Of a stretch of 64,000 nt of DNA, positions 881 to 64,000 are shown piece by piece. The notes below the pieces were generated by a model. It made no database searches and had not been told where the DNA came from. It saw nothing but the letters and a program-made list of their open reading frames with translations. Both the position numbers and the translations under genes were made by a program. Source of the stretch: Nitrospira defluvii (GTDB taxonomy: Bacteria; Nitrospirota; Nitrospiria; Nitrospirales; Nitrospiraceae); contig FP929003.1 of assembly GCA_000196815.1 (NCBI GenBank), positions 310,001 through 374,000 of the forward strand, read 5' to 3'. Within the stretch, counting starts at the first letter, position 1, and every line of letters begins with the position of its first letter.

Positions 881-3549
881 TTCCCTTCTGGCTCATGATG
901 GCCTGGCGGGAACTACGTTCCGCCTGGCGGCACTTTCTGTACTTCCTCGGCTGCATTGCCCTGGGAGTCGGGGCAGTGGTCGGGGTCTCACTCTTTTCTA
1001 CCAATGTTGAGCGGGCCGTTCTGAAGGAAGCGCGCGGCCTGCTGGGAGGGGACCTGGAGATTCGTCTGTCCAGACCTGTGGGTGCGGCAGGCTCGGCTGT
1101 GCTGCAGGGGCTCACAGAGCGAGGAATCGTACGCACACGAGTGAGTGAACTGGTCGCGATGGTGGCTCGAGTTGATCGCGCACAAGGCACGGCAAATGTG
1201 ACGCAGTTAGTCGAATTGAAAGCGATCGAATCAGGGTATCCGCTGTATGGAATTGTCCGGGTTGAACCTGACCGGCCGCTGATGGAATTGCTGCGCCAAA
1301 CTGGAAACAGTTGTCGAGAGACCTGCCATGGGGCAGTGGTTCAGGAGAGCCTTCTGATTCGGTTGGGGTTGGTCGTGGGCGATGCGATCAAAATCGGACA
1401 GGCGTCATTCCACATTACCGGCGTCATTCATACTGAGCCGGATCGAATGGCGAATATGTTTAGCCTGGGACCGCGTGTGCTGATTTCCCAAGACGGTCTT
1501 GTGGCAGCCGACCTCGTCAAACCAGGAAGTCGCCTTCGCGAACGGCATCTCCTCAAGTTACCCGCTGCCATGGCCCTGACTCCGCTGCTCCATGAGCTCC
1601 GTGGGCGCCTTTCCGCGGAGTCCGCACGGCTGTCTTCCTATCGGGATGCTCAGCCACAGCTCAGACAGTTTCTCGATCAGCTGGCCCGGTACTTGGGGCT
1701 AGTGGGATTGACGGCGTTGTTTGTCGGTGGGATTGGCGTGGCCTTGTCGATTCAAGCGTTTGTTCGGGAAAAACTCCAGTCGATTGCGATTCTCAAGACA
1801 TTGGGCGCCGATACGAAGACCATCATCTATTCGTATCTGGGACAAGCAGTCGGATTGGGATTGCTGGGCAGCGCGGTCGGTATTGGAATAGGGCTCCTGT
1901 TGCAAGCCGTGTTGCCGCAGGCCGTCTCCACCTTGCTTGCGACGGATGTTCTGCAGCAGGTCGAGTTTACGTCCGTGCTGTCTTGGACGGCTCTGGCGCC
2001 GCTCTCGAAGGGCTTGGGCTTGGGGGTGCTGACCACACTCTTGTTCAGTCTGTGGCCGCTCCTGACGATTCGAGCCATCAAGCCCGCGGTCATTTTCAGG
2101 CGTGAGGTAGAGGGGGCAATCCGTCCCGGGGTTCGGCCTGAGACATCGCTGTGGCGCCGCGCGATACGGGTAATCACGGCGGATCCTGTTCGTGCCGTCA
2201 CGGCGTCCGGCATTGGGCTTGGTTTGGCGGGCCTCTCGGTGTGGCAGGCCGGCTCTCTGGCGATCGGGGGGCTGTTTATCGGCGGCCTCCTAGTCGCTGT
2301 AGCGGCGTTAACCGTGACGGCGAAAGCACTCCTCCTCGGGATACGTGCATTGCCCAGCCCGCGCGCGCTTTCCCTGCGCCAGGCACTCGGCAACATTCAA
2401 CGTCCCGGAGGCCAAACTCTGGGGGTGATGGTCTCTATCGGTGTCGGGGTCATGGTGATTCTTGCGATTGCGTTGCTGGAGCAGGCCTTGGTCCGTCAAG
2501 TCGGCGAGAATCGACCGAACGATTCACCGACCTTCTTTTTTGTCGATATTCAGCCGGATCAGGCGGAGGGCTTCTCCGCCTTGGTTCATCGGCACACCGG
2601 CGATATGGCTCCTGATTTGACTCCGCTCGTGCGGTCTCGATTGCATGCGATTAATGGGCACGCGGTCACGGCCGAGCGGGAGTCCGAACAGGAAGACCAA
2701 CCCGGCCAGTCGCGAGAGGAGAAGCGGAAGAACTGGTATGTGAATCGTGAGTACGTGCTGACCTTTCTCGATCAGCCGCCTAAAGACAATAGGATTGTCA
2801 AAGGCGCCTGGTGGAAGCCGGGGCAGGTCTTTCCGCGACCGCAGGTGTCTGTCGAAGAAGAAGCGGCAAAGAGTCTCGGCATTGATGTGGGCACCACGCT
2901 GGACCTCAATATCCAGGGGACGATCATGCGGGCTGAGGTGAGCAGTATCAGAAAGGTCGAGTGGGGAAATTTCTCCACGAATTTCTATATGATCTTTTCA
3001 CCGGGCGCATTGGACGGGGCCCCGATGACCTATGTCGCGACGGTGCGAGTGTCCCCGCAGGATGAGGTGGCGCTGCAGTCGGCCGTGGTCGCCGCGTTTC
3101 CCAACGTGACGGCGATTAACATCGGCGAGGTCTTAAGCAGCTTCGCCCGGGTTCTCGACCGGCTGTCCCTGGCCATCCGAGCGGTGGCGCTGTTTTGTCT
3201 GTTAGCCGGGGCACTCGTCATGGCGGCGGCTCTGGCGGCTACGCGGTATCGTCGTCTCTATGAGGCCGTGATTCTCAAGGCTCTCGGCGCGCCCCGTGCG
3301 TTAATTGCCCGGTCGTTTGCAGCGGAATATGCAGTGCTGGGATGCGTGGCGGGGGTGATCGGCGTCGTCCTGGCCAGCCTCTTTTCGTGGGGGATTCTGC
3401 GCTATATTCTGGAGTTGCCCTGGTCGCTGGAACCGTCATTGCTGGGCATCGGGCTGGGTTGCACCGTCTTGCTCACCCTGGTCGTGGGATTCCTCAGTAC
3501 GTATCGTCTGCTCGGGCAGCCACCCTTGAGCGTGCTTCGGCACGAGTGA
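877..3549 (+). CDS. FtsX-like ABC transporter permease (YbbP-type)
   Basis: Large 890-residue inner-membrane permease. It starts with a transmembrane helix (residues about 15-40), then a periplasmic domain, a block of three helices ending in an FtsX-type region (about 265-400), a second helix pair, another periplasmic domain (about 545-750) and a final FtsX domain with three helices (about 765-885). This double-FtsX arrangement is that of YbbP. Translation is coupled to the ATPase gene through the ATGA overlap, so both form one complex. E. coli YbbP partners YbbA and lies beside tesA. The actual substrate cannot be read from the sequence. Confidence 0.88.
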   Translation: MIPFWLMMAWRELRSAWRHFLYFLGCIALGVGAVVGVSLFSTNVERAVLKEARGLLGGDLEIRLSRPVGAAGSAVLQGLTERGIVRTRVSELVAMVARVDRAQGTANVTQLVELKAIESGYPLYGIVRVEPDRPLMELLRQTGNSCRETCHGAVVQESLLIRLGLVVGDAIKIGQASFHITGVIHTEPDRMANMFSLGPRVLISQDGLVAADLVKPGSRLRERHLLKLPAAMALTPLLHELRGRLSAESARLSSYRDAQPQLRQFLDQLARYLGLVGLTALFVGGIGVALSIQAFVREKLQSIAILKTLGADTKTIIYSYLGQAVGLGLLGSAVGIGIGLLLQAVLPQAVSTLLATDVLQQVEFTSVLSWTALAPLSKGLGLGVLTTLLFSLWPLLTIRAIKPAVIFRREVEGAIRPGVRPETSLWRRAIRVITADPVRAVTASGIGLGLAGLSVWQAGSLAIGGLFIGGLLVAVAALTVTAKALLLGIRALPSPRALSLRQALGNIQRPGGQTLGVMVSIGVGVMVILAIALLEQALVRQVGENRPNDSPTFFFVDIQPDQAEGFSALVHRHTGDMAPDLTPLVRSRLHAINGHAVTAERESEQEDQPGQSREEKRKNWYVNREYVLTFLDQPPKDNRIVKGAWWKPGQVFPRPQVSVEEEAAKSLGIDVGTTLDLNIQGTIMRAEVSSIRKVEWGNFSTNFYMIFSPGALDGAPMTYVATVRVSPQDEVALQSAVVAAFPNVTAINIGEVLSSFARVLDRLSLAIRAVALFCLLAGALVMAAALAATRYRRLYEAVILKALGAPRALIARSFAAEYAVLGCVAGVIGVVLASLFSWGILRYILELPWSLEPSLLGIGLGCTVLLTLVVGFLSTYRLLGQPPLSVLRHE

Positions 3550-3579
3550 CGGCCGGCTTGACGAATCCGACCGTTCCCA

Positions 3580-6171
3580 CTACATCGCTGTGCGTGCCAG
3601 CACGGCGCGAATGGCGTCGCGGTCGCGTTCACGGAATCGCACGGCGATGTGCAGTTGCTCCAGATACTGCTCCAGAGTCTTTCCCCCCAGGTCGATCTTC
3701 CGGGATGCGAAGAACGCTCTGACGTCCCGCTCCAATTCCGGAGTCGAAAGGCCGGTGATCCCCCCGCACATGCGGCGCAGGCCGCTCTTGGGAAACTGCC
3801 GGTCCATGCGCTCCCAATTGGTCTTCACAAACTCCCAGGCTTTTTCACGAATGTACACATTGTGTAAGAGGCTGCTGACGAGGAAGGGCGCATCTTGAGT
3901 GCGGATCTCGTCGGTCAGGGTTTTCGCCAACGTGCGCTCCAGCAGTTCGGGTATCCGGAAGGCCGCGAGTGAAAAGAGATAGCGGCGCTCTTCCTGCGGG
4001 GTGGAGGCCTTGTGGAAGCGGGTGAGAAATTCCTCGTAGCGAGCCGCGTCGCCTGTGAAGGCCAGAATGGAAACGAGCGCCGGGATCACATTGGGGTCGA
4101 TCGGTCGAGTCTGCTGCTGCAGAGCGGTATAGGCTTCCAGCGCCTGGGCTTGCACCGTCTGGTCGCGACCTAATGTGCCCAAGGCGCGAATCATGTCACC
4201 GCGCAGTTCTTTGACGAGATCGCGCTCATCGGCCTGTGGCGTCCATCCCAGATCCTGGAATGTCGGGGTGAGGCGATTGCGTACAAAGGCAGCCAGCAGC
4301 GGTCGATCCTCCTCGCTCAGCAGGTGATTCATGGTGGAGAACGACCCCAACATCACGGCCCAGACATGCGGATCCTGTTCGCCGCGGAAATGTCCCGTCA
4401 AACTGAGATACTCGGTGGGTGACACCATGCCGGCGATGGTGGAGGCCCATGTGTCGTTCAGGAGATTAAACCGTTCCACGGGAGCCATGGTCTGAGGCCC
4501 GGTCTGTTGCAGACCGTTGAGGAGCTCGGTGCTGTATCGAACCCGATAGAATCCGTGCCCGCCTTCGTTCGCCAGTACTGATGTCCAATCCTTCGGGAGC
4601 GGGATACGGTTCTCCCGATCGCTGAGCAGCACACGCCGGGTTTCAGCGCCCTGGGCGGTCTGGATGCGCAACTGTATCGGTACCTGCCAGAGTTGCGCAG
4701 GTGCTCCGGACGATGCCGCCGCAGAGTCTTCCGCATATGTGAAGCGGCGCTGCGTGAGTGTCAGGGTTGAGGAAGAGTCGACGGCGAGCGAGAGTAAGGG
4801 ATATCCCGGCGAGAAGATCCATTCGTTCATGAGTGCCGGAACATTCTGTTGTGAGGCATGCGCGAGCGAGACCCACAGGTCGGTAGTCTCTGCGTTGGCG
4901 TAAGCATGCGTCGTCAAATAGTGGCGGACGCCGTTTCTGAATACCGTCGGACCGATATGCTGTTCCAGCATGCGCAGGACGGAGGCTCCCTTTTCATAGG
5001 TCAGCACGTCGAACATGGCTTCGGCTTCTTTGGGCGCGCGCACGGGGAACTCAATCGGCCTCGTGCTCAGCAAGCCGTCGACCGACAGCGCGGCAGCGCG
5101 TGAGACGCCAAAGGCGGTCCAACGTTCCCACTCCGGTTTCCAGGCGTCGACCACCAGCATTTCCATGAAGGTGGCGAAGGCTTCGTTGAGCCAGAGCCCG
5201 TTCCACCAGGCCATCGTCACGAGGTCGCCGAACCACATGTGGGCATTCTCGTGCGCGACCACGTCTGCGATTCGTCCCTGTTCCGCATGTGTGGCCGTGC
5301 GCTGGTCCAGCAGAAGGGCTGTTTCACGGAACGTGATCGCACCCAGATTTTCCATCGCTCCGGAAGCGAAGTCTGGGATGGCGATGAGATCGAGCTTGTC
5401 GCCCGGATAGGGGATGCCATAGTAGTCGGCAAGAAAATCGAGCGAGTACACGGCGATTTCCTGACCGAACGGGGTCAGGTGTTGTTTGCCGGGCACGGAC
5501 CAGAGGCGGACCGGGGTCTGCCGGGCCATGGTGGGAGCTGTGGCTTGGAGGTTCCCGACGATGAAGGCCACGAGATACGTGGACATCTTCATGGACTCCG
5601 CAAAGCGCAGCACTCGTTTTCCCCCCTCTTGTCGATCGTCCACGATCCGGGTATTCGAGATGGCGGTCAGCGCGGGATCGATGGCCAGGGTGACGGCGAA
5701 GACGGCTTTGAATTGCGGTTCGTCCCAACAGGGGAAGGCCCGCCGCGCGTCAGTCGCTTCGAATTGGGTTGCGGCCAGGCTGTGCGAATTGCCCTGGTCA
5801 TCCTTGTAACTACTGCGATAGAACCCGCGCAATTTATCGTTCAGTGTGCCGCGAAACGCCAGGCTCAATTTCCAGGCGCCGGGTTGAATGGCCGACGGGA
5901 AGGAGATGTGGCATCGCTGGTGCTCTTCATCCATCCGCACGGTCCCGGTGCGCGGCGACGTTGTTTCGCCGGACAGTGTCGCCGTCGAGACTTCCAATTC
6001 GGTCGCATTCAGGAGGATCTCAGTAGTCGGCTCGGTCACCGTCAATGTGACGACCTCGTGGCCGGTGAATGAGTGTGCCTGGAGGTCGGGCTCCATACGC
6101 AAATCGTAATGAGATGGAATGACGTGGCGCGGGAGTCTGTATGGATCGTGAGGCGTCATAGCTATACCCAT
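3580..6171 (-). CDS. M1 family zinc aminopeptidase
   Basis: Metallopeptidase that removes N-terminal residues from peptides. From the start chosen here it has GAMEN (residues 271-275, N-terminus recognition), HENAH (307-311) and the third zinc ligand Glu330 in LWLNE, spaced as in HEXXH-x18-E. The C-terminal half is the ERAP1-like helical domain. Start: ATG at 6171 (or 6159) gives the usual N-terminus (TPHDPYRLPRHVIPSHYDL). A longer frame from ATG 6357 overlaps the rpiA stop as ATGA and adds about 62 weakly conserved-looking residues; translational coupling there is possible. It is the last gene of the sugar-phosphate operon. The 30-base gap to the convergent permease gene shows no terminator. 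Confidence 0.9.
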   Translation of the reverse strand: MGIAMTPHDPYRLPRHVIPSHYDLRMEPDLQAHSFTGHEVVTLTVTEPTTEILLNATELEVSTATLSGETTSPRTGTVRMDEEHQRCHISFPSAIQPGAWKLSLAFRGTLNDKLRGFYRSSYKDDQGNSHSLAATQFEATDARRAFPCWDEPQFKAVFAVTLAIDPALTAISNTRIVDDRQEGGKRVLRFAESMKMSTYLVAFIVGNLQATAPTMARQTPVRLWSVPGKQHLTPFGQEIAVYSLDFLADYYGIPYPGDKLDLIAIPDFASGAMENLGAITFRETALLLDQRTATHAEQGRIADVVAHENAHMWFGDLVTMAWWNGLWLNEAFATFMEMLVVDAWKPEWERWTAFGVSRAAALSVDGLLSTRPIEFPVRAPKEAEAMFDVLTYEKGASVLRMLEQHIGPTVFRNGVRHYLTTHAYANAETTDLWVSLAHASQQNVPALMNEWIFSPGYPLLSLAVDSSSTLTLTQRRFTYAEDSAAASSGAPAQLWQVPIQLRIQTAQGAETRRVLLSDRENRIPLPKDWTSVLANEGGHGFYRVRYSTELLNGLQQTGPQTMAPVERFNLLNDTWASTIAGMVSPTEYLSLTGHFRGEQDPHVWAVMLGSFSTMNHLLSEEDRPLLAAFVRNRLTPTFQDLGWTPQADERDLVKELRGDMIRALGTLGRDQTVQAQALEAYTALQQQTRPIDPNVIPALVSILAFTGDAARYEEFLTRFHKASTPQEERRYLFSLAAFRIPELLERTLAKTLTDEIRTQDAPFLVSSLLHNVYIREKAWEFVKTNWERMDRQFPKSGLRRMCGGITGLSTPELERDVRAFFASRKIDLGGKTLEQYLEQLHIAVRFRERDRDAIRAVLARTAM

Positions 6172-56500: not shown

Positions 56501-56953
56501 ATGAAAGTGAGCCTTCGAGCGACCTACGGAATTATTGCCGCCGTGGATCTTGCGCTTCACCATGCCGAACAGCCTGTCTGCGCCAAGTCGATTGCTAAGC
56601 GACAGGCGATTCCGGCCCGGTTCCTCGAGCAGGTGCTTCATGCGATGAAGAAAGCCGGGGTGGTGGCAAGTCAGCGCGGGGCTCAAGGCGGGTACGTGTT
56701 GAGCCGTAAGCCCTCGGAACTCTCCGTGGCAGACATTCTCGATGCACTAGAGGGCCCGCTTCTCACGACAAATGGAGAGGGTGGTCCGAAACATTCGTCT
56801 TCGCGTGGAGCCAAGCAGGAGGCGCTGCTCGCTCACATTTGGGATCGTGTGAAACGGGCGGAATTGAGCGTTCTTTCGGAAGTGACGGTCGAAGAGTTAG
56901 CCAAGCGTCAGCGGTCCCTCGATGAGCAACACACGTTGATGTACCACATTTGA
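56501..56953 (+). CDS. Rrf2-family transcriptional regulator, probably of sulfur assimilation
   Basis: 150 residues. N-terminal winged helix MKVSLRATYGIIAAVDLALHH, KSIAKRQAIPARFLEQVLHAMKKAGVVASQRGAQGGYVLSRKP is the classic Rrf2 block. Only one Cys (in PVCAKS) is present, so the three-Cys Fe-S site of IscR/NsrR is missing; this is the situation in CymR-type cysteine regulators. It is 54 bases upstream of the sulfite reductase gene and in the same direction, which supports a role in sulfate assimilation control. Confidence 0.88.
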   Translation: MKVSLRATYGIIAAVDLALHHAEQPVCAKSIAKRQAIPARFLEQVLHAMKKAGVVASQRGAQGGYVLSRKPSELSVADILDALEGPLLTTNGEGGPKHSSSRGAKQEALLAHIWDRVKRAELSVLSEVTVEELAKRQRSLDEQHTLMYHI

Positions 56954-57007: not shown

Positions 57008-59503
57008 ATGACTCCTAATACAGTGGCTCTCCGTCCAGCGATCAAAACGGAGCCCATTCCGGCCCATATAGTGGAAGAAATTGAAACGTTTGAAGCGGAG
57101 GCCCATCGGGTTCTCGCGGGAGATCTCTCCACCGATATCTTCAAACCGTTCCGTCTGCAATACGGCATCTATGGCCAGCGTCAGCCTGGTGTGCAGATGT
57201 TCCGCATCAAAATCCCTTTCGGCGGGCTGACGGCCAATCAATTGCGACAGGTCGCTGAGTTGGCCGATCGGTATGCCACAGGTGTCGGCCATGTCACCAC
57301 GCGCCAGGATATTCAATTGCACTTTGTGGAGCTCAAGCATGTTCCCGAGATGATGCGTTTGTTGGCCTCAGTTGGGCTGACGACGCGCGAGGCCTGCGCG
57401 AATACCGTGCGGAACGTCACGGCTTGCCATTTGGCGGGGGTGTGCCAAGGGGAGGTGTTCGATGTCACGCCGTATGCGAAGACGGTGGCCTATCATCTCC
57501 TGCGCAATCCGTTGAATCAGAGTCTCCCGCGGAAATTCAAGATTGCATTGTCCGGATGCCGGCAGGATTGCGCACTCACCCCTATTCACGACATCGGTTT
57601 ACTCGCGGCTAAACGGGCCGACGGGACTATCGGCTTCCGGGTGGTGGCAGGCGGTGGACTGGGATCGACGCCCCGCATGGCCCAGGTGTTGCGAGAATTT
57701 ACGCCGATGGACGAATTGCTCCCGACCATCGAAGCCGTGATCAAGGTGTTCGACACGCTGGGGAACCGTAAGAATCGCAACAAGGCCCGCATGAAGTTCG
57801 TCATCGAAAAACTCGGGTTCGACGAATTCAAGCGTCGCTGGGAGGCAGCGTATGCGGCCATGGGGTATGCCGTGCCCACGCACGAGCCGATCAAGCTGCT
57901 GGAGTATGCCGATGCGCCGCCACTCATTATGCCGACCAAGGCAGGCGTCCTGTCCAACGGTCATGGCAACGGGAGCGGGAACGATGCCGTCTCACTCAAT
58001 GGCCAGGTCTCTGCGTTTCAGGCCTGGAAGCGCACCAATGTCGTGCCGCAGCGGCAGGATGGTTTTGCGACGGCGGCGATTAAGTTGCCGATGGGTGATC
58101 TGACAGGCGACCAAATGTGGGGGGTCGCAGACCTGGCCGAACGGTATTCGAACGGCAACATCCGGACGACCATCAATCAGAACATGGTCATCCGGTGGAT
58201 TCCCGAGAGACGGCTGGAGGAGTTCTACCAGGAACTGGTGCAGCACAGTTTGGGGGATCCCGGCGCGGAACTCGTCGAAGACATCATCGCCTGCCCGGGC
58301 ACCGATACCTGCGGACTGGGAATCACCTCGTCCAAGGGCATGGCCAGGGCGTTGGCGGAAGTGTTTCCCGCCGGCCAGGTCCCGGAAGATCTCAGGGATG
58401 TGAGCGTGAAGATCAGCGGGTGCCACAACTCCTGCGCCCAGCACCATATTGCCACCATCGGGTTGCACGGAGTCGGTAAACGTCTTGGCGAACATACAGC
58501 TCCCCATTACGAGCTGCACCTCGGCGGGCATGTGGACGGCACGCCGAAGATCGGACAATTGGCGGTCAAATTGCCCGCGAAGAGTGTTCCGGCGGCGGTG
58601 CGCCATCTGGTCGACGTCTATCGTCGGGATCGAAAGGCGGGTGAGAGCCTCCAGTCGTTCATCGCGCGTGTCGGGAAGAATGTTCTCAAGGACGAACTCA
58701 TTCCCTACACGATCGTTCCGCCGTACGAGCAGGATTCGACCTATTACTACGACTGGGAAGGCGAGGCGGAATTCGTGCTGGAGGATCTGGGCCCAGGCGA
58801 GTGCGCGGGTGGCGCCTTGGAGATGATCGACGACCGGATGTTAGAGGCGGATCAGGAGCTCTATCAGGCGAAATTGCTGGTTGAGAAACATCAGTATGCC
58901 TTGTCGGTGAATAAGTCGTATCGTGCGGTACTGGCGGCGGCGAAAGGTCTGTTGGTGACCGAAGGCCTTGATCCGGCCACTGATGCAGAAACCTTCCAGG
59001 AGTTCGATCAGCGACTGGCCAGCAAAGGGATCGTTCCGGCCACCTATAAGAATCTTGGTGCGCAAGTCGGCGACCTTGGATCTAAGGACGCGACTGCCGA
59101 GGCCGCGACGGAGAAAATGGCCTTCGCCAAGCGGTTTCTCGCTGTCTGTCGGGCAGCCACCGAACAAATGGGGAAGGATCTCAAGTTAGCGCAGGTGAAG
59201 GAAGAATCCGTGCCCGCTGCAACTCCTGTTGCGGCGCCTGCTTCGCCTGCACCCGTTGCCGCGGCTCAGGCGCCTGTGTACGATCTGCGCGGTGTGGCCT
59301 GCCCGATGAACTATGTGAAAACGAAATTGAAATTGGAAATGATGGATAACGGTGAGCAGCTGGAAGTCTGGCTCGACGCCGGAGAGCCTATACGTAACGT
59401 GCCGATGAGCTTGCGCAATGACGGGCACAAGATCCTGGACGAGGGGCCGTTGGAGCCTGAGGCCAAGCATTTCAAAATTCTTGTGGAAAAGGTCGAGGGG
59501 TAA
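57008..59503 (+). CDS. Sulfite reductase (siroheme, 4Fe-4S) fused to a TusA-like domain
   Basis: 831 residues from ATG 57008. Two tandem ferredoxin-like/siroheme half-repeats. Both halves have a full C-x5-C/C-x3-C set: Cys140, 146, 184, 188 and Cys429, 435, 472, 476 (the latter in ACPGTDTCG and SGCHNSCAQHH). Ordinary assimilatory enzymes keep only the second. After a glycine/acidic linker comes a helical segment (about 620-735, ALEMIDDRMLEADQELYQAKLL, resembling a HEPN-type bundle), an Ala/Pro linker and a TusA domain (about 755-831) with CP motif RGVACPMNYVKTK, Cys765. Probably reduces sulfite and hands sulfur to the TusA cysteine. Nitrite reduction cannot be excluded, but the cys neighbours favour sulfite. 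Confidence 0.88.
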   Translation: MTPNTVALRPAIKTEPIPAHIVEEIETFEAEAHRVLAGDLSTDIFKPFRLQYGIYGQRQPGVQMFRIKIPFGGLTANQLRQVAELADRYATGVGHVTTRQDIQLHFVELKHVPEMMRLLASVGLTTREACANTVRNVTACHLAGVCQGEVFDVTPYAKTVAYHLLRNPLNQSLPRKFKIALSGCRQDCALTPIHDIGLLAAKRADGTIGFRVVAGGGLGSTPRMAQVLREFTPMDELLPTIEAVIKVFDTLGNRKNRNKARMKFVIEKLGFDEFKRRWEAAYAAMGYAVPTHEPIKLLEYADAPPLIMPTKAGVLSNGHGNGSGNDAVSLNGQVSAFQAWKRTNVVPQRQDGFATAAIKLPMGDLTGDQMWGVADLAERYSNGNIRTTINQNMVIRWIPERRLEEFYQELVQHSLGDPGAELVEDIIACPGTDTCGLGITSSKGMARALAEVFPAGQVPEDLRDVSVKISGCHNSCAQHHIATIGLHGVGKRLGEHTAPHYELHLGGHVDGTPKIGQLAVKLPAKSVPAAVRHLVDVYRRDRKAGESLQSFIARVGKNVLKDELIPYTIVPPYEQDSTYYYDWEGEAEFVLEDLGPGECAGGALEMIDDRMLEADQELYQAKLLVEKHQYALSVNKSYRAVLAAAKGLLVTEGLDPATDAETFQEFDQRLASKGIVPATYKNLGAQVGDLGSKDATAEAATEKMAFAKRFLAVCRAATEQMGKDLKLAQVKEESVPAATPVAAPASPAPVAAAQAPVYDLRGVACPMNYVKTKLKLEMMDNGEQLEVWLDAGEPIRNVPMSLRNDGHKILDEGPLEPEAKHFKILVEKVEG

Positions 59504-59508
59504 GAAGG

Positions 59509-60231
59509 GTGAACGAAACACAACAGCCCGCTGAGCGACCCTCCGACGCAGAGCTGAAGGCGCTGAGTGATTCGTTTGAATCCCAGCAGCCATGGGACCT
59601 GCTGGAGTACGCGTTGAAGACCTACCGGCAGCGCATTGTGCTGGCCTGCAGTTTCGGGGCGGAGGATGTCGCTCTGGTTGATATGGTGCATCGCATCGAT
59701 CCGGACGCACCGCTTTTTTATCTGGATACGGATTTTCTGTTTCCCGAAACCTTCGACGTGCGTGATCGCATTATCGCGCGGTACGGGTTGAAGCCGGCGC
59801 AGGTCATTCAAATGAAATCTCTGTTGACGCCGGAACAACAGGCTGCCCGACATGGCACCATGTTGTGGGCCAGCAAGCCGGACCAGTGCTGTGAGCTCCG
59901 GAAAATCGAACCGCTCACTCGTATTCTCGGCGAGTACGCGGCTTGGATCACCGGGATCCGGCGAGACCAGGCTCCCACAAGGGCGAATGCCGGATTGATC
60001 GAGTGGGACAAGAAATTCAACCTGGTCAAAGTGAATCCCCTGGCCCGATGGAGCAGTGAAAACGTCTGGACGTATCTGCAACTCCATGAGGTGCCCTATA
60101 ACACGTTACACGACCGCAATTACCCCAGCATCGGCTGTACCCACTGTACGGCGCCTGTCCTTCCGGGAGACGATCCGCGTTCCGGTCGGTGGAAGAATTT
60201 CGGCAAGACCGAGTGCGGGCTGCACAAGTAA
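59509..60231 (+). CDS. cysH: Adenylylsulfate (APS) reductase, Fe-S type
   Basis: Reduces APS to sulfite with thioredoxin-type reductant. 240 residues from GTG 59509, five bases after the previous stop, with AAGAAGG upstream. The CC...CxxC cluster ligands are present (Cys127, Cys128, Cys210, Cys213), which mark the APS-reducing form rather than PAPS reductase, and the catalytic Cys236 lies in TECGLH. The substrate loop CSFGAEDVALVD is N-terminal. Confidence 0.94.
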   Translation: MNETQQPAERPSDAELKALSDSFESQQPWDLLEYALKTYRQRIVLACSFGAEDVALVDMVHRIDPDAPLFYLDTDFLFPETFDVRDRIIARYGLKPAQVIQMKSLLTPEQQAARHGTMLWASKPDQCCELRKIEPLTRILGEYAAWITGIRRDQAPTRANAGLIEWDKKFNLVKVNPLARWSSENVWTYLQLHEVPYNTLHDRNYPSIGCTHCTAPVLPGDDPRSGRWKNFGKTECGLHK

Positions 60232-60272: not shown

Positions 60273-61340
60273 ATGCAACATCTGCTCGCCAAAGTCGCTA
60301 AAGGTCAAAAAACATCCAAGGATCTCACGTGGGAAGAGGCCAAACAGGCCATGCGCCTCATGATCGAGGGAACCGCGACCCCTGCTCAAATAGGGGCGTT
60401 CCTCACGGCCATGCGATTCAAGTCGGAATCGGTCACAGAATTAGCGGCCTTCACCGCGACCGCGCGACAATATGTGCCGCCGGTCCCGGTCCGTTCCGGG
60501 CTCGGAGTCGTCGATGTGCCCGTCTATGCGGGGAAGCGCGAAACCTTTCACGCCATCCTTCCCGCTGCCATTGTCGCGGCGGCCGCCGGAGCGGTGTTAC
60601 TGCTGCACGGAGTGGATGGGCCTCCGGACAGGCTGGGCATCTCGTCCGTCCTGAAGCTTCTGGGCATACCGGTCGATATGACCGCCAAGTCGGTCGGAGC
60701 CGAATTGGAAAAGAAGGGATTCGCCTACCTGGACCTGGCGCTGTATCACCCTCCGGTGAGCCGGTTTCTGGAAATGAGACAGGAGCTGGGCGTGCGCAAT
60801 TTCTTTCATCCCGTGGCTCGTATGCTCAATCCCGCCCGCGCGACCTCGCAGGTGATCGGGCTGTCGCATCCGCCTTACTTTGAAAAGACGATCGAGGCGT
60901 TGCGTATGTTGAGTTGTCCGCGCGCATTGGTCATTCGCGGGGTCGAAGGGGATCCGGAACTCTCGATCGGCAATTCCACGCGACTCTTGGAACTCAAGGA
61001 CGAGCGCATCACCCCATTTACCTTCCAGCCGAAGGATGCGGGCTTGTCGATGGCGACCTTCCGTGAAATGGCCGGGTTTCCGGTCGAGCAGCGGGAGCGG
61101 GAGGCCGATCTGATCAAGCGGCTCCTCGCGAACGAAATCCAGGGCGGGCAACGGGACTGGGTCCTCCTCAATGCGGCCATGTTGCTTTACGCCGCCGGCA
61201 AGGGGACGTCGATTACTGGAAATCTCGGGGCCGCCAGAAGCGCCTTGGAGTCCGGCCTGGCCAAGGCCAAACTGGCTGAATTGGTGGCGGTCGCCGGGTC
61301 GAGCGCGGGACACGCGCCGAAGGTAGGCATTTCAGCGTAA
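60273..61340 (+). CDS. TrpD-like phosphoribosyltransferase-fold protein in a cys operon
   Basis: 355 residues, homologous to anthranilate phosphoribosyltransferase (TrpD2/YbiB type). N-terminal helical domain with LTWEEAKQAMRLMIEGTATPAQIGAFLTAMRFK, then the nucleoside-phosphorylase-like alpha/beta domain. The diagnostic TrpD KHGNR-type motif is replaced by LLLHGVDG and the glycine-rich diphosphate loop by VYAGKRETFHA, so it probably does not make tryptophan precursors. It sits between cysH and cysD with short gaps and must be co-expressed with sulfate assimilation. Function unknown. Confidence 0.85.
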   Translation: MQHLLAKVAKGQKTSKDLTWEEAKQAMRLMIEGTATPAQIGAFLTAMRFKSESVTELAAFTATARQYVPPVPVRSGLGVVDVPVYAGKRETFHAILPAAIVAAAAGAVLLLHGVDGPPDRLGISSVLKLLGIPVDMTAKSVGAELEKKGFAYLDLALYHPPVSRFLEMRQELGVRNFFHPVARMLNPARATSQVIGLSHPPYFEKTIEALRMLSCPRALVIRGVEGDPELSIGNSTRLLELKDERITPFTFQPKDAGLSMATFREMAGFPVEQREREADLIKRLLANEIQGGQRDWVLLNAAMLLYAAGKGTSITGNLGAARSALESGLAKAKLAELVAVAGSSAGHAPKVGISA

Positions 61341-61357: not shown

Positions 61358-62155
61358 ATGAAACATTTGCGTCAACTCGAAGATCAAAGCGTCTATATCC
61401 TTCGGGAAGCCTACAAGCATTTCAATCATCTCGCCATGCTCTGGTCGATGGGCAAGGATTCGACCGTGCTCCTGTGGCTGGCCCGCAAGGCCTTTTTCGG
61501 GCACGTGCCGTTTCCCTTGCTGCACGTGGATACGAGTTACAAGATTCCGGCGATGATTGAATATCGCGACCGGATTGCCCGCGAGTGGCGCCTCAATCTG
61601 GTGGTGGGCCAAAACAAGGAGGCCCTGGCCGCCGGGATGAACCATACGTTGGGGCGTGATGTCTGCTGTACCGCCCTCAAGACGACGGCCATGAAGAATC
61701 TGGTCGAAGAAAAAGGGTATACCGGCATCATTCTCGGTGTTCGGGCGGATGAAGACAGCACCAGGGCGAAGGAGCGATATTTTTCTCCGCGCGATAAACA
61801 CGGGGATTGGGATTTTCGCGACCAGCCGCCGGAATTATGGGATCAGTTCAAGACCACGTTTCCCCCGGGCACGCATATCCGGATTCATCCGCTCCTTGAT
61901 TGGACCGAGATCAACATCTGGGAATACATCAAGCATGAGAGCATCCCCTTCATGGATCTCTATCTGGACAGGGGGGATGGCACACGGTATCGAAGTTTGG
62001 GCTGCGCGCCCTGTACCATGCCGATCAAATCCACGGCGAAGACTGTCGATGAGATTATTACGGAGCTGCGTGGAAGTAATGTGGCGGAGCGAGCCGGCCG
62101 CGCGCAGGATGCGGGGCGGGGTATGGAGATGCTCCGGAAGAAGGGGTACATGTGA
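61358..62155 (+). CDS. cysD: Sulfate adenylyltransferase subunit 2
   Basis: Makes APS from sulfate and ATP together with CysN. 265 residues: PP-loop [56 protein letters not shown], and ending [16 protein letters not shown]. 17 bases after the TrpD-like gene and 79 before cysN. Confidence 0.95.
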
Positions 62156-62234
62156 GGCGGCCTATGCCGGATAGCAGGCGAGCCTTCGAGCGATCACGAT
62201 CATGAACCAGGGTTCCATTGAACGAGTGAATCAT

Positions 62235-64000
62235 ATGACACAGCACGAACAGAGCAAGCCGCAAGAGAGTCTCAATATCGTCATCGTGGGCCATGTGGAT
62301 CATGGGAAATCCACGCTGGTGGGACGACTCTATGCCGATACGGGCTCGTTGCCGGAAGGCAAAGTGGAAAAGGTGCAGGCGATCTGTCGCCAGCAGGGTA
62401 AGGAATTTGAGTACGCGTTCTTGTTCGACGCGTTTCTTGAAGAGCAGGAGCAGGGCATCACGATTGATACGGCACGTACGTTCTTCATCTGGAACGGGCG
62501 GCAGTACATCATTATCGACGCGCCGGGGCACAAGGAGTTTTTGAAGAACATGATCTCGGGCGCAGCCCGGGCCGAAGCCGCGCTGCTGCTTATCGACGCA
62601 TTGGAAGGCGTGCGCGAACAATCCAAGAAGCATGGCTACCTCCTGTCGCTGCTGGGCGTGACGCAGTTTGCGGTGGTGGTCAATAAAATGGATCTGGTCG
62701 GGTATCGGCAGGATGTGTTCGACGGAATCGAAAAGGAATATCGGGAATTTCTGGGTCAGTTCCGTGCGGTTCCCCAACAGATGATTCCGGTCAGCGCGAA
62801 GATGGGTGACAACATCGCGACGCGCAGCAGCCACATGAACTGGTATCAGGGGCCGACAGTGCTGGAGACGCTGGCTCTCTTTAAGAAGGAGCAGGTTCGC
62901 TCGGAACAGCCGCTCCGGTTTCCATTGCAGGACGTCTATAAGTTCGATGCCCGACGGATTCTGGCCGGCCGTATCACAGCCGGCCGTTTGAAGGTCGGAG
63001 ATCAGCTGGTGTTTTCGCCATCGAACAAGACTGCGGTGGTGCAATCGCTTGAAGGGTTCAATGTCGATCCACCGCGGAGCGACGCGCAAGCCGGAGAGTC
63101 GGTCGGCATTACGCTCGACGAACAGATTTTTGTGGAACGTGGAGAAATCGCATCCCATCGGGATTCCATTCCGCTTGTCTCGACGGCGATTCGCGTGAAT
63201 CTATTTTGGATGGGCAGGCGGCCCTTGGAGAAGGGGCGGAAATACGTGTTGCGGCTTGCCACGCGGGAAGTCGCCTGCGAGGTGGCCGCAATTCATCGGA
63301 TTATCGACACCGCTGATCTGGCTCAGCTGCAGGAAAGCCAGTCGGTGGCCAAGAATCAGGTCGCCGAATTGACTCTGCGGGTGAAGTCGCCGCTCGCATT
63401 TGATCTGTCGTCATCATTCGAGGCCACGGGCCGGTTTGTGCTGGTCGATGAGTACGATATTGCCGGGGGCGGGATCATTACCGAGTTGGTGCATGACGAA
63501 CAGGAAGGGCTGCGGGAAGAGGCGAGGCAACGGGAATATGCGTGGCTCACGGGCGATGTCCGGGCTGAGGACCGGGCCCGACAATACGGCCATCGGGCCG
63601 CCATTGTGTTGTTCACCGGCTCGGCTCAGACGGGCAAGACGTTTCTTGCACGACGGGTGGAAGCTTTGCTGGTTGCCGATAGCCGCCACGCCTATCTGCT
63701 GGAAGGCGAGAATCTGTTGCAGGGATTGGATGCGGATCTGTCTGCCGCCGATCCGTCTTTTGCCGCCGAGCGTGTGCGCCGATACGGGGAAGTCGCCAGG
63801 TTGCTCATTGATACGGGGCTCATCGTCGTGTCCACGAGCAAAACCTTTGGTATCAACTATCAGCGGATGGCGGAGATGATACGGACGTTGGTGCAACCGG
63901 CCCCGGTTCTTGCGGTACACATGAGCCGGGCAGGGGAAGAGCCGCCGCCGAATACGGATTTGCACTTTGCCGGCCCGCAGGACTTCGACGCGGCTGCGCG
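62235..64000 (+). CDS. cysN: Sulfate adenylyltransferase subunit 1, fused to a degenerate APS-kinase-like domain (3' end outside window)
   Basis: Opens at ATG 62235 (an in-frame ATG at 62202 is possible) and stays open to the window edge. The GTPase part has [10 protein letters not shown] (G1), DAPGHKEFL (G3) and NKMDLV (G4), then beta-barrel domains to about residue 415. From about 455 a CysC-like domain begins: P-loop GSAQTGKT (462-469) instead of GxSGx[14 protein letters not shown] where active APS kinases read LDGDNVRHGL, and [21 protein letters not shown]. The changed DGDN (to EGEN) and lost Arg suggest a non-catalytic kinase tail. Since CysH here is the APS-using type, PAPS would not be needed. 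Confidence 0.93.

Follow-up and report, generated by a model that had tools for sequence, protein, structure and literature searches.

A Putative Assimilatory Sulfite Reductase of Nitrospira with Two Complete Cysteine Sets and a Fused TusA Domain

A locus in the genome of Nitrospira defluvii encodes a sulfite reductase (SiR) that carries a complete set of four cysteines in each of its two homologous halves and a TusA domain at its C terminus. It raises the question of whether one or two siroheme-[4Fe-4S] centers are present in a single chain, and whether the fused domain takes over the reduced sulfur. We analyzed a window of 64,000 nucleotides (contig FP929003.1, positions 310,001 to 374,000) located in a single-contig genome of 4,317,083 bases. 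All coordinates given below refer to this window, and all features in it lie on the plus strand.

Results

The SiR reading frame (57008-59503) encodes 831 amino acids, with a GTGAGG-like ribosome-binding site located about 10 nt 5' of the ATG at 57008. Of 61 relatives, 59 carry a match, and chance or an annotation artefact was thus rejected. The translation contains 12 cysteines (residues 130, 140, 146, 184, 188, 429, 435, 472, 476, 599, 714, and 765) and is organized as SiR half 1 (aa 50-290, 57155-57877), SiR half 2 (aa 336-560, 58013-58687), a GEC tail, a HEPN-like helical domain (58814-59164), and a TusA domain (59279-59491). The Pfam families NIR_SIR and NIR_SIR_ferr each match the protein in two stretches, and in the C-terminal part TusA is recognized clearly (E = 3e-15) and HEPN weakly (E = 6e-5). 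We compared an AlphaFold2 model (mean pLDDT 78, with values below 50 at the GEC motif) to known structures using Foldseek. This confirmed the fold: Mycobacterium tuberculosis NirA (1zj8) ranked first, followed by plant NiR/SiR and Escherichia coli SiRHP, and the C-terminal domains matched a HEPN structure (2hsb, TM 0.76) and TusA (3lvj), respectively. An R-x4-6-H RNase motif was not found in the HEPN-like domain (aa 603-719), and an active HEPN nuclease was rejected for this reason.

The SiR gene is preceded by a CymR-like regulator of the Rrf2 family (56501-56953) and followed by CysH, a PAPS/APS reductase (59509-60231), a TrpD-like glycosyltransferase-3 family protein (60273-61340), and the small and large subunits of ATP sulfurylase, CysD (61358-62155) and CysN (62202-64000, continuing beyond the window end). 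The order Rrf2-SiR-CysH-TrpD-like-CysD-CysN is retained across Nitrospirales, where CysH, CysD, and CysN accompany SiR in nearly all loci long enough to show the operon. The TrpD-like protein is a conserved member as well, placing a glycosyltransferase-3 protein inside a sulfate-assimilation operon throughout this order. Lys178 of the protein is found as in sulfite reductases, with an Asn at this position in the separate NirA paralogue of the same genome. Based on the operon with CysH, CysD, and CysN and on Lys178, we assign the 831-aa protein as the assimilatory sulfite reductase of Nitrospira, which would reduce sulfite to sulfide.

Scores against curated equivalog profiles remain below their cut-offs for NirA (287.8 versus 523 bits) and CysI (141 versus 757 bits) as well as for dsrA and dsrB (47 and 81 bits versus 393 and 342). 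By these profiles, the protein groups with NirA/CysI and not with Dsr, and a DsrA-DsrB fusion was rejected on the scores. We also rejected a CysH-SiR fusion in one homologue (L055), the N-terminal extension of which is an open frame without CysH similarity.

We next compared the two halves. Their profiles align with E values of 1e-26 (local) and 1e-31 (global) in hhalign, and C140/C146/C184/C188 fall in the same columns as C429/C435/C472/C476. Translation and profile alignment together confirm the earlier reading that both half-repeats contain C-x5-C/C-x3-C motifs, in half 1 at C140-x5-C146 (57425-57445) and C184-x3-C188 (57557-57571), and in half 2 at C429-x5-C435 (58292-58312) and C472-x3-C476 (58421-58435). 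By homology, the half-2 motifs would provide the catalytic [4Fe-4S] ligands, with C476 as the bridging residue. That the half-1 set is missing from known relatives was likewise confirmed, as neither 1zj8 nor tobacco nitrite reductase (3b0h) has a cysteine in those columns. The first-pass annotation had further suggested that a Dsr-like ancestor had been fused; two homologous halves that both retain all their ligands are consistent with a duplicated and fused ancestor yet to lose one site, a general scenario already published (PMC10229431). The Dsr-like character is not supported, the Dsr profiles scoring far weaker.

How widely the half-1 cysteines are retained was assessed in 121 non-redundant representatives (<80% identity) from Nitrospirota, Nitrospinota, Poribacteria, Acidobacteriota, Chloroflexota, Omnitrophota, Actinomycetota, Myxococcota, and others. 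The half-2 cysteines are invariant in all classes. All four half-1 cysteines are present in 63 representatives, some of them in 33, and none in 25, and the set is retained throughout Nitrospirota. Such retention is not a matter of chance: under independence, 21 representatives would be expected to keep all four half-1 cysteines and 1.5 to keep none, shared ancestry inflating both excesses. In a tree-based pair test with 11 independent pairs differing in C140, C184 was concordant in about 8 and opposite in none (median p = 0.008); the other half-1 cysteine pairs showed the same trend with p > 0.05. Complete sets are found to either side of the midpoint of the unrooted tree, along which this state changes 14 times. 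It is thus probable from these distributions that the half-1 set is ancestral and has been lost repeatedly, usually as a set. The last two half-1 cysteines are spaced by x2 to x5 among relatives, in contrast to the fixed x3 of half 2. In a class that keeps C140 and C184 (L040, L117, L119, L136, L163-L169, and L196-L205), position 146 is Ser or Ala and position 188 is His, the latter in 20/20 members, possibly representing a natural ligand exchange at a metal site. A further SiR-like paralogue, with half-1 cysteines in a C-x2-C arrangement and no GEC motif, is encoded in other Nitrospirota (L056-L059), where its open frames measure about 1,075-1,100 aa.

The anion-binding residues of half 1 are Arg66 (57203-57205), Arg135 (57410-57412), and Lys176 and Lys178 of a Lys-x-Lys motif (57533-57541), which from our alignment and E. 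coli numbering we take to be the counterparts of Arg83, Arg153, Lys215, and Lys217 of SiRHP. All four are invariant in every family class. At their mirror-site counterparts in half 2 (positions 357, 424, 464, and 466), the family alignment shows variable rather than conserved basic residues. Only a handful of residues co-vary with the half-1 set, most of them hydrophobic or small (e.g. L360, L505, and G92). Within half 2, the hydrophobic L360 and L505 are the sole clear trackers, no polar half-2 residue follows the half-1 cysteines in the family alignment, and R386, Q391, and N474 are equally conserved in lineages lacking these cysteines.

The GEC motif containing Cys599 (58796-58804) is near-universal in the family. 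Short members, found among loci L064-L224, lack the extra domains and end in GECAx, placing the GEC cysteine third from last. This position suggests, by analogy to DsrC or CysH, that it may act as a swinging C-terminal cysteine. The CP-motif cysteine of TusA (Cys765, codon 59300-59302) is present in every fused TusA domain of the family. A majority of the sampled members carry no TusA, and a separate TusA is also encoded in the Nitrospira genome. We rejected a link between TusA and the second set of cysteines: 30 of the 63 members with a full half-1 set have no TusA, a clade of about 10 homologues has TusA without any half-1 cysteine, and the two are independent traits. Many TusA-less homologues are evidently functional, as are many that lack the half-1 set, which weighs against our working model.

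We then inspected gene neighborhoods. A ThiF gene is located within 2.5 kb of 12/24 TusA-bearing but only 1/75 TusA-less representatives (Fisher p = 3e-8, a value that ignores ancestry and comes mostly from related lineages). ThiF next to a TusA-bearing SiR is confined to a few lineages, and in Nitrospira it is unlinked. An Omnitrophota locus (L135) carries, in this order, ThiS-PALP, SiR-TusA, ThrC-like PALP, and ThiF. Here, the ThiS-PALP fusion gene overlaps the start of SiR-TusA, forming a translationally coupled pair (1204-4678 of the locus). The Nitrospira genome contains an unlinked cluster at about 1.72 Mb with the order ThiS, PALP, ThiF, ThrC-like PALP, ThiS, ThiF, and JAB, which likely represents a thiocarboxylate-dependent cysteine pathway. 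This cluster (L232, 4051-9565; about 1,720,050-1,725,565 of the genome) thus holds two each of ThiS-like, ThiF, and PALP genes and a JAB peptidase. Operons combining SirA (TusA), SiR, and a rhodanese-less E1 have been described, as has a fusion of ThiS to SiR (Iyer et al. 2006, PMC1779556). The earlier proposal that TusA serves as a sulfur carrier for the reductase is supported, with the gene neighborhoods in its favor.

Discussion

We favor a single catalytic siroheme-[4Fe-4S] center together with an auxiliary metal site in half 1, probably an Fe-S site. The two siroheme-[4Fe-4S] centers envisaged in the first-pass annotation were not borne out, as the mirror anion-binding positions are not conserved as basic and no polar half-2 residue tracks the cysteines. 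On this basis, nothing points to a second sulfite site, and hardly anything to a second siroheme. A milder version, in which half 2 is catalytic and the half-1 cysteines hold a second, structural siroheme center as in DsrA, would account for a half-1 ligand set that is complete, co-retained, and aligned with that of half 2, and the non-catalytic siroheme site that persists in DsrA indicates that absent anion-binding residues alone do not rule out siroheme (PMC10229431). Yet R386, Q391, and N474 are kept regardless of the half-1 cysteines, the mirror positions are not conserved as basic, and both the C-x2 to x5-C spacing and His188 fit poorly with a bridging thiolate, so that we regard a structural siroheme as decidedly improbable. 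The half-1 cysteines could instead bind no cofactor, bind zinc, or form disulfides, either as a decaying relic or as a structural or redox-switch site. The set has indeed been lost repeatedly while the enzyme persists, its spacing drifts, partial sets such as C-CC and -CC- occur, and few other residues co-vary. A full set in roughly half of the representatives, in several phyla and on either side of the midpoint, is hard to reconcile with decay, the all-or-none pattern lies well above the prediction for independent loss, and the His188 found in all 20 members of its class resembles ligand exchange more than erosion. We thus consider a relic, zinc, or disulfide site rather unlikely.

A conceptual problem with sulfur hand-over to TusA is that six-electron reduction of sulfite yields sulfide, and formation of a persulfide thus requires either an early-released intermediate or re-oxidation. 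TusA may merely be tethered to the reductase or may serve tRNA or cofactor sulfuration, with sulfide being freely released to cysteine synthase. Sulfide is what most canonical assimilatory SiRs release, and the many family members without TusA, like the separate TusA of the genome, are compatible with such a role. This reading remains on the doubtful side, given that the CP cysteine is conserved in all fused TusA domains, that ThiF is enriched near TusA-bearing members, and that SirA/TusA is part of published SiR-ThiS-E1 operons (PMC1779556). It is likely that the enzyme functions in the protein-bound delivery of sulfur to cysteine synthesis.

Our working model combines one catalytic center, an auxiliary half-1 site, and a sulfur relay from Cys599 via Cys765 to ThiS, and we judge the chance that all three parts hold to be about even. 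By homology, Cys429, Cys435, Cys472, and Cys476 of half 2 would hold the catalytic cluster, and Arg66, Arg99, Arg135, Lys176, and Lys178 of half 1 would bind sulfite and the siroheme carboxylates. The half-1 cysteines would represent a duplicate ligand set that was not lost and would most likely bind metal in an auxiliary, non-catalytic role, probably as an Fe-S cluster that has no working siroheme beside it. Reduced sulfur would be accepted by Cys599 in the tail, passed as a persulfide to Cys765 of TusA, and from there to a ThiS-like carrier whose C terminus has been adenylated by a rhodanese-less ThiF-type enzyme. As the gene neighborhoods suggest, the resulting ThiS thiocarboxylate would then be converted into cysteine by a CysO/CysM-like PALP enzyme.

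By the accepted account, assimilatory SiRs arose by duplication and fusion, followed by loss of one of two metal sites (PMC10229431). The widespread family to which the Nitrospira SiR belongs looks like an intermediate stage of this evolution. Because both ligand sets are kept in many phyla and one has been lost repeatedly, the loss can be followed in extant enzymes. A stronger version would be a living intermediate with two metal centers, possibly two siroheme-[4Fe-4S] centers as in DsrAB, that passes sulfur from siroheme to the tail cysteine, TusA, and ThiS and never releases sulfide; we think this unlikely. If the tail cysteine and TusA do carry sulfur, it would travel in covalently bound form on its way from sulfite into cysteine, bypassing free sulfide, in abundant nitrite oxidizers. 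No member of the family is found among solved structures, and we found no paper in the open-access literature on a SiR-TusA fusion or on a SiR with two ligand sets.

Comparison with Known Systems

The assimilatory NirA/SiR enzymes (1zj8, 3b0h, maize SiR, and E. coli SiRHP) share with Nitrospira SiR the two Fer-NiR_SIR halves, the half-2 cysteines, and the half-1 anion binders at about 25% identity. They differ in that 1zj8 and 3b0h have no half-1 cysteines, that the aligned solved chains have no GEC tail, and that HEPN-like and TusA domains are absent. DsrAB likewise consists of two homologous units that both carry a set of cluster ligands, and its sulfur is passed to a cysteine carrier, DsrC. 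In contrast to Nitrospira SiR, these units are separate subunits with inserted ferredoxin domains, their sequence match is very weak, and the DsrB motif differs (PMC10229431). The F420-dependent sulfite reductase Fsr has a single C-x5-C/C-x3-C unit, similar to each half of Nitrospira SiR, and is regarded as near the pre-duplication state (PMC10229431). In Fsr, by contrast, this half is not fused to a second one but linked to an F420 oxidase, and TusA is absent. Wolinella succinogenes has a HcyS/HcyF-Sir pathway. Class 4e operons, which include an actinobacterial ThiS-SiR fusion (PMC1779556), and the M. tuberculosis CysO-CysM-Mec+ system have SiR, CysH, ATP sulfurylase, SirA/TusA, a rhodanese-less E1, a ThiS-like carrier, cysteine synthase, and JAB in common with Nitrospira, where, in contrast to Class 4e, TusA is fused to SiR itself and the ThiS, ThiF, PALP, and JAB genes are unlinked.
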